Part shown: one piece after another, positions 1 to 5,485 of the stretch | Layout of the letters: each line of letters opens with the position of its first letter | Numbering within the stretch: the stretch's first letter is position 1 | Assembly (NCBI RefSeq): GCF_000176855.2 | Contig: NC_015138.1 | Coordinates: 1,984,001 to 2,048,000 of the forward strand | Direction: 5' to 3' | DNA: 64,000 bases | Origin: Paracidovorax avenae ATCC 19860 | GTDB taxonomy: Bacteria; Pseudomonadota; Gammaproteobacteria; Burkholderiales; Burkholderiaceae_C | The notes under the pieces: model-generated | What the model saw: the letters and a program-made list of their open reading frames with translations, nothing else | Told to the model about the DNA's origin: nothing | Databases searched by the model: none | Translations under genes and position numbers: made by a program

Positions 1-632
1 CCGGAGCGTGCGCGGATGCGCTGCTCGCGCGCCACCAGCTTGCCCGCGACCAGCGCGAACAGGTAGCAGGGCTTCTTGTGCGGATCGACCCACTTGGCGA
101 AGTGCCGGCCATCGTCCAGCCCGCCCTGGTCCACCAGGTTGCCGTTGGACAGCAGCACCGGGTACTCGGCCTTGTCGGCGCGCAGCGTGACGGTGTAGCT
201 CGCCATCACGTCCGGGCGGTCGAGGAAGTAGGTGATGCGGCGGAAGCCCTCGGCCTCGCACTGCGTGAAGAACGTGCCCTGGCTCACGTAGAGCCCCGAC
301 AGCTGCGTGTTCTTGGCGGGGCAGCAGGTGGTGAAGATCTCCAGATCGAAGGGCTCTTCGCCTTCGGGGAGGTTCTCCAGCACCAGATGGGCGCCTTCGA
401 GCTTGAAGGACGTGCCCGCCCCGTTGACCAGCACCCGCGCGAGGTTCAGATCCTCGCCGTCCAGGCGCAGGGGGCCCGGCGGCACGTCGGCGTTGCGGCG
501 CACGCGCAGGCGGCTGAGCACGCGGGTCTTGGCGGGGTCCAGGTCGAACGTGAGGTCCACGCTGTCGATCCAGAACGCGGGGGCGATGTAGTCGGCACGG
601 TGGATGGCCGTGGCGGGTTGTCCTTCACGCAT
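1..632 (-). CDS. pepN: Aminopeptidase N, N-terminal part (cut by window edge)
   Basis: The frame opens at ATG 632 and runs off the left edge, giving about 210 residues. They match the N-terminal beta-domain of M1-family aminopeptidase N: an early RADY segment, then QCEAEGFRRITYFLDRPDV near residues 120-140 and a NGN segment near 165. The family is a zinc metallopeptidase that removes N-terminal residues from cytoplasmic peptides. The catalytic GAMEN and HEXXH motifs lie outside the window, so activity cannot be judged. It lies 60 bases downstream of the DUF4276 gene on the same strand and could be read from the prfB transcript. A GGAG ribosome-binding site lies 11 bases before the start. Confidence 0.9.
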   Translation of the reverse strand, partial: MREGQPATAIHRADYIAPAFWIDSVDLTFDLDPAKTRVLSRLRVRRNADVPPGPLRLDGEDLNLARVLVNGAGTSFKLEGAHLVLENLPEGEEPFDLEIFTTCCPAKNTQLSGLYVSQGTFFTQCEAEGFRRITYFLDRPDVMASYTVTLRADKAEYPVLLSNGNLVDQGGLDDGRHFAKWVDPHKKPCYLFALVAGKLVAREQRIRARS

Positions 633-692
633 GGGGCGTAGTCTCCAAATAGGGCACGAGCCGTTTCACGGCAAGCGTGCGGGAAGTAAGGG

Positions 693-1286
693 TCATTGGA
701 CGAGATTCAGTACTGCGCGGTCGAGGCGCTGGAAGCTCGGCGAATGCTGCGCGAGGTGCGTCAGGTTCAGCTGGGACGCTATTTTTGCCTGATGCGTGGT
801 GGGTTTGTAGGCCATGCCCTTGGGTTGGGCGGCGGAAAGCCAGCCTTTGGCGTCTCTTACACCCTCAGGATCGGTCGGGAAGGCGGCCTCGGACGAGATG
901 GCCGGCAGGGCCAGGCGTGTGGTCGCCTCATCGCACAGGAACAGCGATTCGAACTCCTTGACGATAAAACAGGCCTCGAAAGGATGATCAGCTCGGATGT
1001 CATGCGCCATGGCCTTGAGGTTCCGCTCTTCATGCTCCGCGTCGATGCACCACTCGCAATCGAAATCCAGAACGCACAGCACGGCCGCATCTTCCAGAAT
1101 GGCTGCTTCGAAAAACCGGGCGAAATTGGCCTTCACCCTGGGCAGTTCGCCCCGGCGCTGCGGTTTCAATACCTGTACGTCATAACGTCCATGGTGTTCA
1201 AGGATGCGCCGCAGCAGTACGGGGACTGCGCGCTCGTCGCCTTCGCCTTCCACGATGGGCAGCAGCCTTTGGCGGATCGCGGTCAT
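693..1286 (-). CDS. DUF4276 TOPRIM-like protein, partner of the upstream ATPase
   Basis: A 197-residue protein that matches the DUF4276 pattern. An acidic VEGEGDE motif (E13, E15, E18) is followed by a strand ending in LDFD (D74, D76), a KEFES segment (E111, E113) and a C-terminal YKPTTHQAK...SFQRL block. The early glutamate plus DxD arrangement resembles TOPRIM nucleases and primases, so a metal-dependent nuclease role is plausible but inferred. Its ATG overlaps the stop of the ATPase gene (ATGA, 1283-1286), which implies translational coupling and a joint function. Base composition is lower in GC than the flanking genes. Comparable ATPase/TOPRIM pairs (PARIS, AbiL, OLD-related) are anti-phage systems. 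Confidence 0.85.
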   Translation of the reverse strand: MTAIRQRLLPIVEGEGDERAVPVLLRRILEHHGRYDVQVLKPQRRGELPRVKANFARFFEAAILEDAAVLCVLDFDCEWCIDAEHEERNLKAMAHDIRADHPFEACFIVKEFESLFLCDEATTRLALPAISSEAAFPTDPEGVRDAKGWLSAAQPKGMAYKPTTHQAKIASQLNLTHLAQHSPSFQRLDRAVLNLVQ

Positions 1287-2512
1287 GGAGCTTCTTCCGG
1301 CTGAAGGCCTTCAGCCGCCATGAACTCGCCCAGCGTCATGAGGCCGCGTTGTACGGCCTCCCGCTGCGACGCCTTGATAGGGGCGATGTGCGTGACGCCG
1401 TCTTGCATGGTGACGATGCGGATGTTGTCTGGTTCAAAATGCTCAATCAATTGCGGACTGTGTGTGGTGACGACGATCTGCGTCAGTTCCGCCACCTCCT
1501 TGAAGGCTTCGGCGAGCATGGAAAGAACAGCCGGATGCACAGTCTGCTCGGGTTCCTCTATCACGATCAGTGAGGGCGTGGGCGCCTGATAAAGCGAGAG
1601 CAGGATGCCAAAGACTCGCAGCGTGCCGTCGGAGAGCTGAGCCGGATCGAATTGCCGCTCCGTTTCCCCGTTCTTGCCGAAGCGAAAAAAGGGGATGAGG
1701 TAGCTACCCACGGGCGTGACCGCCACATCCCTGAAATCGGGCAGCACTACGCGCATCATTTCGTAGATGCGCTCCAGCATCTGGCGACCTTCTTCCGTGC
1801 GTTGTGCGGATCGGATGACGGAGACCCAGTTGCTGCCGTCTTCGCGCAGGCTCGTGTCTGCGTGCAGAGTGGTGACTTGCCGCAGGATGTTGGGATAGAG
1901 CGAGGAAAATCTCCAGCGCAGGATGTGCCGCTCCAGCGGCTTTCCCAACTCATCGAGGCCGAACATCCTGGTCTCTTCCAGCAGGGCGCCTAGCGCCAAG
2001 CGCTGCTGATCTTCGATTGTGATGGGGGTATTGGGGGAGATGTTCTTCCTCAGGATCTGTCCCGCCCCATCCCGGGTGAAACCAAGTTCGTACACTTCCC
2101 AGTCCCATACCTGCTGCGAATCGTCCTGCGGGAAGAGTTCTTCGTGGTGGTAGGTTGCATCCTCGCTGGCCACACGGTAGTTACCATCGGCGGCGCTGTC
2201 GATTTTCAGTACATAGTGCGCGTGCCGATTCGCGTTCTTCCTGAAAGACTGCGTGGCATGGATACCAATTTCCACCAAACCGGGTATGTCCGCTTCTCCG
2301 CTGTGCTGTCGCAGGCGACCAATGCCGCCGCGCGCTGCGACAGCATGGTCCAATCCGTCGCGCACGGCATCGCGCAGGAACTCCAGCGTGCGCACGAAGT
2401 TGGTCTTGCCCGTCGCGTTTGGCCCCACGAGCACCGTCACGCCAGGAGACAGGGCTACGCCCACGTCTTCCAGACTGAAACAATGGCGTGCCTCCACGCG
2501 AGTCAACTTCAT
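1283..2512 (-). CDS. SMC/OLD-like AAA (ABC-type) ATPase, AAA_21/AAA_15 class
   Basis: A 409-residue ATPase. Walker A is GPNATGKT (residues 30-37), the ABC signature-like LSDGT is at 293-297, Walker B LIVIEEPE at 315-322, and an H-loop TTHSP at 349-353. The region between Walker A and the signature is a helical insert without a coiled-coil hook, as in single-chain AAA_21 proteins. I start at ATG 2512: the match to the family begins there, and GAGG, overlapping the prfB stop, is the ribosome-binding site. The start lies only 7 bases beyond the prfB stop, so the pair appears inserted into, and read from, the prfB transcript. Probable defence sensor or motor; function not shown. Confidence 0.87.
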   Translation of the reverse strand: MKLTRVEARHCFSLEDVGVALSPGVTVLVGPNATGKTNFVRTLEFLRDAVRDGLDHAVAARGGIGRLRQHSGEADIPGLVEIGIHATQSFRKNANRHAHYVLKIDSAADGNYRVASEDATYHHEELFPQDDSQQVWDWEVYELGFTRDGAGQILRKNISPNTPITIEDQQRLALGALLEETRMFGLDELGKPLERHILRWRFSSLYPNILRQVTTLHADTSLREDGSNWVSVIRSAQRTEEGRQMLERIYEMMRVVLPDFRDVAVTPVGSYLIPFFRFGKNGETERQFDPAQLSDGTLRVFGILLSLYQAPTPSLIVIEEPEQTVHPAVLSMLAEAFKEVAELTQIVVTTHSPQLIEHFEPDNIRIVTMQDGVTHIAPIKASQREAVQRGLMTLGEFMAAEGLQPEEAP

Positions 2513-2519
2513 GCTGGCC

Positions 2520-3624
2520 TCAAACGCCCTGCTTGAGGGAGGCTTCGATGAACACGTCGAGGTCGCCGTCCAGCACCTTCTGGGTGGCGGAGACTTCGAC
2601 GTTGGTGCGCAGGTCCTTGATGCGGCTGTTGTCGAGCACGTAGCTGCGGATCTGGTGGCCCCAGCCCACGTCGGTCTTCGTGTCTTCCAGCTTCTGCTGC
2701 TCTTCCATGCGCTTGCGCATCTCGAAGTCGTAGAGGCGCGAGCGCAGGCGCTGCCAGGCAACATCGCGGTTGCTGTGCTGGCTGCGGCCGTCCTGGCACT
2801 GCACGACGATGCCGGTCGGGATGTGCGTGAGGCGCACGGCCGAATCGGTCTTGTTGATGTGCTGCCCGCCCGCGCCCGATGCGCGGAAGGTGTCGGTGCG
2901 CACGTCGGCCGGGTTGATGTTGATCTCGATCGAGTCGTCGATCTCGGGATAGACGAAGAGCGATGCGAAGCTCGTGTGGCGGCCGCCGGACGAATCGAAC
3001 GGGCTCTTGCGCACGAGGCGGTGCACGCCGGTCTCGGTGCGCAGCAGGCCGTAGGCGTACTCGCCCTCGATCTTGATTGTGGCGCTCTTGATGCCGGCGA
3101 CGTCGCCCGGTGTCTCGTCTTCCACCGTCGCCTTGAAGCCCTTGCGCTCGGCGTACTTGAGGTACTGGCGCAGCAGCATGCCGGCCCAGTCGCAGGCCTC
3201 GGTGCCGCCGGCGCCGGCCTGGATATCGACGAAGCAGTTCAGCGGATCGGCCTCGTTGCTGAACATGCGGCGGAATTCCAGCTCCTCGATGAGCGGGCGC
3301 AGCTTGGCCGTTTCGGCCTCGATGGTGAGCAGGCCGGCCTCGTCGCCTTCTTCCTTGCTCATCTCATAGAGCTCGGCGTTGTCCGCAAGCTCGCGTGTGA
3401 GCTTGTCGAGCGTGACCACGACGGCGGAGAGGGACTTCTGTTCCTTGCCCAGTTCCTGGGCCTTCTTCGGGTCGTTCCAGACGGACGGGTCTTCCAGCGA
3501 GGCGTTTACCGTGCGCAGGCGTTCGAACTTGGCATCGAAGTCAAAGATACCTCCGTAACTCTTGCGTGCGCTGCGAGAGGTCTTCGAGGGTGGTGCCGAT
3601 GAGGTTGATGCGTTCTGCGTCCAT
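2520..3624 (-). CDS. prfB: Peptide chain release factor 2, with programmed +1 frameshift
   Basis: RF2 terminates translation at UAA and UGA. The reading frame starts at ATG 3624, meets an in-frame TGA (3541-3543) as codon 28, and continues in the +1 frame with GAC (3540-3542), giving 367 residues, close to the 365 of E. coli RF2. The codon-recognition SPF motif (KSPFDSSGG) and the catalytic GGQ motif ([11 protein letters not shown]) are both present. The interrupted frame is autoregulatory, not a defect. Downstream on the same strand the ATPase/DUF4276 pair begins 7 bases after the stop. Upstream is an unrelated hydrolase gene. Confidence 0.97.
3540..3555 (-). promoter_or_regulatory. prfB +1 frameshift signal
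   Basis: On the minus strand the order is an internal Shine-Dalgarno-like CGGAGG (3550-3555), three bases TAT, then the slippery CTT followed by TGA C. This is the arrangement of E. coli prfB (AGGGGG, UAU, CUU, UGA C). When RF2 is scarce the ribosome slips forward one base at CUU and makes full-length RF2; when RF2 is plentiful it stops at the UGA. Confidence 0.96.
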
Positions 3625-3747
3625 GGTGCTGTCCTGTCTTGCGGTTCGTTGGTGTAACCGGCGATTTTCTCATGGGCGCGGGGCCGGGCCTCCAATGTCC
3701 CTTCGCACTCCCTCGCCGCGCATCGCGGGGCAGGGCAGGGTTGGGCG

Positions 3748-4674
3748 TCAGGCCTGCAGGAAGTCCTCGATGAGCCGCGCCACCACGGCCGGCTGGTCGT
3801 GGTGCAGCATGTGGCCGGCATCCTGCACCACCGCGGTGCGGCAGTCGCGCACGTGCTCCAGCCGCCGGTGGTATTCCTCGAGCGAATAGCGGCCCTTCCA
3901 CCACTGGCCCATGCTGTCGTCGCTCGCCTCCACCGCCAGGACGGGGGCGGAGATGCCGGCATACAGGGCCAGGGCTTCTTCCACCCGGTAGAGCAGGGGG
4001 TTGACGACCTTGTGGGCGGCATCGCCCAGGATGCGCCACCCGCCGGCGCCGTCCGGCTCCGCCCACTCGCGCGCCAGCCATTGCGCCTGGTCGCGGCCGA
4101 GACGCGGATTGGTCTTCATGAGGCGGCCCGCGACGGCCTCTGCGCTCTCGTAGCGCTTGAGCTCCATGCCGCCGGCCTCCAGCGTGCGCAGTTCGTCCAG
4201 CCATTGGGCGTAGCGCGCGGGCGCCTGCGCGGGCTCGGTAGCGGGCAGGCCGAAGCCTTCCAGGTTGACCAGGCGCCGGATGCGGCCGGGCCGCACGCCG
4301 GCATAGGCCATCGCCACGTTGCCGCCCATGCTGTGGCCGACGAGGTCCACCGGGCCGTCGGGCGCATAGTGGTCCAGCAGCCGGTCCAGGTCGGCGAGGT
4401 AATCGGCGAAGGCGTAGTGGTCGCATCGTCCGGGCGGCATGCTATGCCCGAAGCCGCGCCAGTCGGGCGCGATGATGCGCCGCGCGCTCGCGAATTCCGC
4501 GCCGAAGGCATCGACCACGAACTGGTAGGACGCGCCCACGTCCATCCAGCCGTGCACCATCACCAGCGGCGGCGCCGTCGCCGCGGTATCTGCAGCCTCC
4601 CACAGCCGGACGTGGTACTGGAGGGTGCGGATGGGCAACCGTTCGCTGCGCGAGGTTCGGAGGGGCTGGTACAT
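3748..4674 (-). CDS. Alpha/beta-hydrolase fold protein
   Basis: A 308-residue cytoplasmic hydrolase. The oxyanion region is MVHGWMD, the nucleophile elbow GHSMGG carries the serine, an acidic residue follows in VLAVEASDD, and the catalytic histidine is in [11 protein letters not shown] near the C-terminus. The arrangement is that of the epoxide hydrolase/haloperoxidase-like subgroup; substrate cannot be read from the sequence. It is the last gene of a minus-strand run with the Nei-type glycosylase upstream. The start at 4674 gives the expected short N-terminus before the first beta strand. Confidence 0.85.
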
Positions 4675-4735
4675 GCCCGGATTATTGGCATGCCGGGCGG
4701 GCGCGGCAGTCAAGGCTGGGACAAGGCGCGGCACC

Positions 4736-5485
4736 CTAAGTCGGGCCGAACAGTTCCTGGCAGCGTTCGCAGTAGTAGGCGATGCGCGCGGTGCGCCCCA
4801 GCTTGCGCTTTTCGAAGGGTATGTGGCAGCGCGGGCATTCGGACTGGCGGTGGGCCAGCCAGTGGCGCCGCAGCACGCCCTGGCGCTTCCACTCCAGGAA
4901 CTCGAACGCATAGTCCCGCGCCTGCGCCACGAGCTCGCGCAGGCGCGCGGCGGGCAGGGCGCCCACGGGCGAGCACGGATGCACGCGGATGCGGAAGAGC
5001 ACCTCGTTCTTGATGATGTTGCCCACGCCCGCGAACACGTCCTGGTCGAGCAGCGCGTCGCAGGCGAGAAGCTCGGGACGGGCCCGCAGGCGCCTGCGGG
5101 CGAGCGCCGGGTCCCAGGCGTCGGACATGACGTCCGCGCGCCAGTCGTAGGCATCGTCCAGCGGCCCCTCGACCGGCCGGACCGAGCACGCATAGAAGTC
5201 GATCGCATGCCCGCCCTCGAATCCCAGGCTGAGCCGGGCGGGAGTGTCCTTTGGATCATCGATGCGGAAGGAGCCGAAGAGCAGGAAATGCACGCGCACC
5301 GTGCAGCCGCTGTCCAGCTCGAGCAGGAAGTGCTTGCCCCAGGTGCGCACGGAGACGACGCGGCGCCCGGTCAGGGCCGCCATATCGATAGCGGTGGTGT
5401 TGCCCGACGCCCGCTCGATCCTGCGGCCCTCGGCGAGCGGGCGGGCGGCTTCCTTGAGCAGGACGAGGGACGGGCCTTCGGGCAT
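4736..5485 (-). CDS. nei: Endonuclease VIII-like DNA glycosylase/AP lyase (Fpg/Nei family)
   Basis: A 249-residue base-excision repair enzyme. The invariant N-terminus MPEG provides the catalytic proline and glutamate after Met removal. A GKHFLLE strand carries the conserved lysine, the GVGNIIKNE helix-two-turn-helix is at about 150-165, and a C-terminal four-cysteine zinc finger (CPRC...CERC) is at 215-242. The family excises oxidised pyrimidines and cuts the resulting abasic site. The start is fixed because the family must begin with Met-Pro-Glu. The precise Nei subtype is uncertain. Confidence 0.9.
   Translation of the reverse strand: MPEGPSLVLLKEAARPLAEGRRIERASGNTTAIDMAALTGRRVVSVRTWGKHFLLELDSGCTVRVHFLLFGSFRIDDPKDTPARLSLGFEGGHAIDFYACSVRPVEGPLDDAYDWRADVMSDAWDPALARRRLRARPELLACDALLDQDVFAGVGNIIKNEVLFRIRVHPCSPVGALPAARLRELVAQARDYAFEFLEWKRQGVLRRHWLAHRQSECPRCHIPFEKRKLGRTARIAYYCERCQELFGPT

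Follow-up and report, generated by a model that had tools for sequence, protein, structure and literature searches.

Genes behind prfB and their layout

We analysed a window of 64,000 nucleotides (nt) from Paracidovorax avenae ATCC 19860 (NC_015138.1, positions 1,984,001 to 2,048,000 of the forward strand), in which two overlapping genes for an ATPase and a DUF4276 protein lie between prfB, the gene of release factor 2 (RF2), and pepN. Judged by its sequence, this pair is a member of HEC-01 (Hma-embedded candidate 01, PADLOC-DB), a candidate defence system; it is ordinary in kind but belongs to a divergent branch anchored at prfB. Its fixed address and the swapped arm of its ATPase are what make this member interesting. 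Window coordinates, all on the minus strand, are as follows.

1283 to 2512, minus strand: open reading frame (ORF) of the HEC-01A-type ATPase, 409 amino acids (aa) plus stop
693 to 1286, minus strand: ORF of the HEC-01B-type DUF4276 protein, a predicted TOPRIM-like nuclease, 197 aa plus stop
1283 to 1286, minus strand: ATGA overlap of the ATPase stop and the DUF4276 start, from the sequence
2513 to 2519, minus strand: 7-nt spacer from the prfB stop to the ATPase ATG, from the sequence
2520 to 3470, minus strand: 3' part of prfB (stop at 2520–2522), the constant neighbour, from the sequence and locus comparison
3540 to 3556, minus strand: RF2-type programmed +1 frameshift site in prfB, GGAGGTATCTTTGAC, read in the sequence
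633 to 692, minus strand: 60-nt spacer from the DUF4276 gene to pepN, unlike the 25–34-nt gap of empty sites
3 to 632, minus strand: 5' part of pepN, from the sequence and genus comparison

The original prediction, made from the sequence alone, had described two coupled ORFs with an ATGA overlap that start 7 bases after the prfB stop, separate prfB from pepN and have a lower GC content than their neighbours, and all of this was borne out. GC content was 60% in the ATPase gene and 61% in the DUF4276 gene, versus 65% in the prfB part and 69% in the pepN part. GC at third codon positions was about 20 points lower in the pair (73% and 72%) than in the flanking prfB and pepN parts (92% and 93%). 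The overlap arithmetic was identical in the other six genomes of the genus that carry the pair, and in each of the seven a spacer of 7 or 8 nt separated prfB from the ATPase gene. We name prfB and pepN as the original prediction did, and their sequences are consistent with this.

Because the ATPase gene begins 7 nt behind prfB and no promoter-like site was found, the pair is probably co-transcribed with prfB (the promoter scan gave 0 sites against 0.5 expected from shuffled sequences, and is hence uninformative by itself). An Rfam scan of window positions 1–5000 gave no match. The leader of pepN is longer and different at occupied sites compared with bare ones, and positions 633–692 of the window contain a short inverted repeat, GCCGTGAAACGGC. 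We take the motif at 3540–3556 to be the RF2 frameshift sequence, through which prfB regulates itself; prfB has retained it, and the pair thus lies downstream of an autoregulated gene.

Relation to HEC-01 and other ATPase–TOPRIM systems

Pfam matched the ATPase to AAA_21 (1e-32) and its partner to DUF4276 (7.8e-17), both above the curated cut-offs; in NCBIfam, the matches of the ATPase all stayed below threshold and the partner had none. The residues G30, N32, G35 and K36 (presumably Walker A), S294, D295 and G296 (signature), E319 and E320 (Walker B) and H351 (H-loop) were invariant in 39 aligned ATPases, so that the complete set of motifs originally predicted is in place and the ATPase is, by its sequence, of the SMC/Rad50 type with intact motifs. 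The TOPRIM-like acidic layout attributed to the DUF4276 protein (E13, D74 and D76) likewise held, since these residues were invariant in 25 aligned proteins, as were E111, E113 and K147. In its structural model, this protein has an OLD-like TOPRIM fold with the acidic catalytic layout known from OLD. A comparison of the DUF4276 profile with the sequences of solved structures gave no match.

In PADLOC, the best model for the ATPase was HEC-01A (PDLC04178, 1.5e-103; best of the 142 families listed), and the partner matched eight families, all of them HEC-01B (best PDLC04196, 1.8e-45). The ATPase also matched the AriA, AbiLi, MADS and PtuA models with weaker E-values. The two genes are adjacent in A–B order with the ATGA overlap, as HEC-01 genes are; the pair sits between prfB and pepN and not inside a host defence system (the name HEC comes from embedding in Hma). 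Such embedding relates to the way in which the candidates were discovered. The window's branch differs from other HEC-01 members in its divergence and its location behind prfB, and the models fit another lineage far better (2.9e-179 and 2.1e-82 for a pair from Paracidovorax oryzae).

Several known systems resemble the pair. PARIS also combines an ATPase (AriA) with a TOPRIM-type partner (AriB), and the window's ATPase matched AriA at 3.9e-32, after eight HEC-01A models. AriB, however, is a DUF4435 protein that cleaves tRNA, whereas the window's second gene is DUF4276 in Pfam and exclusively HEC-01B in PADLOC. As DUF4435 was not found, the pair is not PARIS by its second gene, and the originally noted difference between the two partners stands. 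The PARIS AriA and AriB chains were absent among the structure matches listed, which excludes nothing. OLD and Gabija GajA share the TOPRIM fold and a related ATPase (GajA, 3.8e-15 in PADLOC), but carry both parts in one chain (6p74, matched in both structure comparisons), whereas two ORFs are present here. AbiL has a related ATPase (AbiLi, 7.5e-24) but a second gene of the RloB/AbiLii type, for which the window's second gene had no match in Pfam or PADLOC. In Septu and retron PtuA systems, PtuB is an HNH nuclease according to structure titles, unlike the DUF4276 partner. The suggestion that the pair might be a separate type was not upheld, because the HEC-01 models fit both genes better than any other PADLOC model.

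Published papers cite several Hma-embedded candidates, including HEC-06, as having antiviral activity in a 2024 preprint (PMC12988326), list HEC-01 in a Desulfovibrio strain (PMC12724379) and count HECs among systems of unknown mechanism (PMC10855318). Our literature search found no published mechanism for HEC-01 and no paper using DUF4276 as a term. HEC-01 was already on record as an antiviral candidate; what is added here is the prfB address and the evolution of the pair.

Distribution and exchange between species

Among 17 genomes of the genus, the prfB–pepN interval held the pair in seven, a bare 25–34 nt in nine and another gene in one. In that one (L049, 5098–6282), an unrelated 395-aa ORF without a Pfam or PADLOC match lies between prfB and pepN. 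Presence in 7 of 17 genomes together with the lower GC content means that the pair is not found at the same place in all relatives with normal composition. The accessory status implied by the original prediction is therefore supported on these two counts; purifying selection on both genes in most pairs compared (see below) speaks partly against that prediction. The same patchy presence, with two small overlapping genes and the mention of the AbiEii toxin in the Pfam note for AAA_21, would suit a selfish pair resembling a toxin–antitoxin system with no antiviral role. An SMC-type ATPase with all its catalytic residues is, to our knowledge, not typical of small antitoxins, and in view of the HEC-01 profile matches as well we consider this explanation very unlikely.

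Of 299 genomes sampled from the family, 11 (the window's own counted) encoded a DUF4276 relative, with prfB directly upstream in six and not within about 300 bases upstream in the other five. One short pattern, and hence a non-exhaustive search, yielded 69 DUF4276 loci in named genomes, 16 of them directly behind prfB; a few lay too near a contig end for prfB linkage to be judged. With the window and L005 included, 66 of 71 loci had an adjacent ATPase, and three of the five others lay no more than 260 bases from where the examined sequence ends. The two genes are co-inherited. The 18 prfB-linked rows (the 16, the window and L005) formed one clade in both trees (65 ATPase rows and 62 DUF4276 rows), interrupted only by L066, a contig from a metagenome in which an ABC-F-like gene lies upstream. 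In 17 of the 18, the ATPase gene lay on the strand of prfB and started 7–34 nt past the prfB stop; in L065, the distance was about 161 nt. A DUF4276 relative with 29.5% identity also occurs in phage record MT835995.1 (22298–22834; human fecal samples), near the record end.

The gene downstream of the pair varied: it was pepN, a HAD-like gene or the Wadjet gene JetA. The last of these was seen in one Sulfuricellaceae genome (L069, 4814–8927), where the prfB-linked pair is also followed by two small ORFs that we read as a presumable MNT/HEPN toxin–antitoxin pair. We also sampled 60 other genera, with one genome per genus chosen from the matches listed and enough contig around the site, and found the pair at the prfB address in none. 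The prfB–pepN interval was below 250 nt in 40 of these, 546–718 nt in 16 and 1797 nt in one, and three had no pepN match; in 15 of the 16, we take the intervening ORF to be a HAD phosphatase. These intervals lend no support to the idea that the prfB–pepN interval is a general hotspot for cargo. Given the varying downstream genes and the absence in 60 genera, it is prfB that is the constant neighbour. Another translation-linked address was seen in P. oryzae (L124, 3667–6576), where a distant HEC-01 pair follows a GTPase gene, presumably ychF, at a distance of about 20 nt; at the other loci tested, no HEC-01 pair was behind a GTPase gene of this kind.

Comparing the module (both genes) with its flanks in ten pairs of loci (five p-values each, uncorrected and not independent), we found disagreement in both directions, as would be expected for exchange between species, which appears to have occurred. 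Between L047 and L048, the module differed at 37 of 1873 sites and the flanks at 81 of 1587 (p 4.4e-7), and a tract of high identity lay near the ends of the module. Between L043 and L045, ATPase residues 81–320 differed at 11 of 720 sites, the flanks at 87 of 1575 (p 3.3e-6) and the DUF4276 gene at 111 of 590. Between L045 and L046, ATPase residues 1–240 differed at 293 of 702 sites, versus 84 of 1575 in the flanks and 32 of 590 in the DUF4276 gene. Protein identity in this last pair was 28–71% up to residue 275, 76% up to 320 and 86–93% beyond, and the stretch of lowest identity (81–180) covers the long beta strands at 79–147 and the part that follows. One ATPase allele thus has its first ~275 residues replaced, with a nuclease gene at flank-level divergence. 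The simplest reading of these sequences is gene conversion that swapped the putative sensing part of the ATPase while keeping its nuclease-side end and the nuclease. Non-significant comparisons were ATPase 81–320 between the window and L044 (p 0.11), DUF4276 between L043 and L044 (p 0.078) and ATPase 1–240 between L043 and L045 (p 0.31).

Strict vertical descent within the genus is rejected by this comparison. Codon bias in prfB may account for part of the module's higher synonymous divergence, but it cannot explain the pairs whose modules are more alike than their flanks. The ratio of nonsynonymous to synonymous substitution rates (dN/dS) was 0.05–0.17 for the ATPase where computable and 0.06–0.10 for the partner, indicating mostly purifying selection; a value of 0.54 for the DUF4276 gene between L047 and L048 is based on very few changes.

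Proposed function and meaning of the address

We favour, with a probability of roughly 0.68, the view that the pair represents a branch of HEC-01, the candidate defence system, that is anchored at prfB, makes an infection-sensing ATPase–nuclease complex and spreads by recombination. Judged from sequence and structural model, ATPase-gated nuclease defence is the likeliest function of the pair. The ATPase and the DUF4276 protein would act as one complex. Its ATPase would recognise damaged nucleic acid or a product of the phage, probably by means of the variable beta-strand arm (about residues 80–180). ATP binding or hydrolysis would then free or activate the metal-dependent nuclease (E13, D17, D74, D76, E111, E113 and K147), and the activated nuclease would cut DNA or RNA and halt infection, possibly through cell arrest. 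The pair would spread through homologous recombination spanning prfB and the gene that comes next.

Several results weigh against this proposal. Around non-prfB HEC-01 pairs, no PADLOC family had more than two members among the 25 of 81 families listed (120 of 289 ORFs at 43 of 47 loci, some of them perhaps in the wrong frame, scanned with no control set), so the defence-island context of the wider family is weak. Viral contigs gave 4 + 74 pattern matches, none confirmed as a relative, and relatives were few in phages (1 record) and plasmids (3 records). Comamonadaceae as one clade (14 rows, three grouped by their prfB) was not rejected in the ATPase tree (approximately unbiased test, p-AU 0.286), which leaves room for deep vertical descent with losses. 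A cellular role, too, would be compatible with the fixed address and the mostly purifying selection.

Such a role could be that of a quality-control or stress module tied to translation and not primarily antiviral. It would work together with RF2 or on stalled translation, where it might cut tRNA or mRNA, and would be kept behind prfB for that reason. All clade rows but one lie behind prfB, 17 of 18 at 7–34 nt on the same strand, prfB carries the frameshift site, and the ATPase dN/dS is low (0.05–0.17). Yet the pair is missing in 10 of the 17 genus genomes and at the prfB address in 60 of 60 other genera, other HEC-01 lineages are located elsewhere, and the ATPase arm has been replaced between species. 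We therefore regard a translation module as unlikely.

The HEC-01 defence reading leaves the address itself to be explained. Probably, it is without functional meaning: the pair would have inserted behind prfB once, long ago, in Betaproteobacteria, and would then have been lost and regained by recombination through the conserved flanks, an account that concerns the address only and overlaps with the reading we favour. The single clade in both trees, the high-identity L047–L048 tract near the module ends and the failure to reject monophyly of Comamonadaceae agree with this; nothing speaks directly against it, but the lack of other notable cargo in 60 genera would need explaining. We consider it quite improbable that the address is functional, with the branch translated from the RF2 operon, sensing or acting on disturbed translation during infection, and arm exchange altering recognition.

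The prfB branch of HEC-01 offers closely related alleles from nature whose ATPase arms differ and whose nucleases hardly do, as well as bare sites. Together, these would allow the determinant of phage specificity and the importance of coupling to the RF2 operon to be tested. A defence-like pair at a housekeeping address also marks a place that searches limited to defence islands would miss. If the address does prove functional, a release-factor operon would double as a defence sensor.
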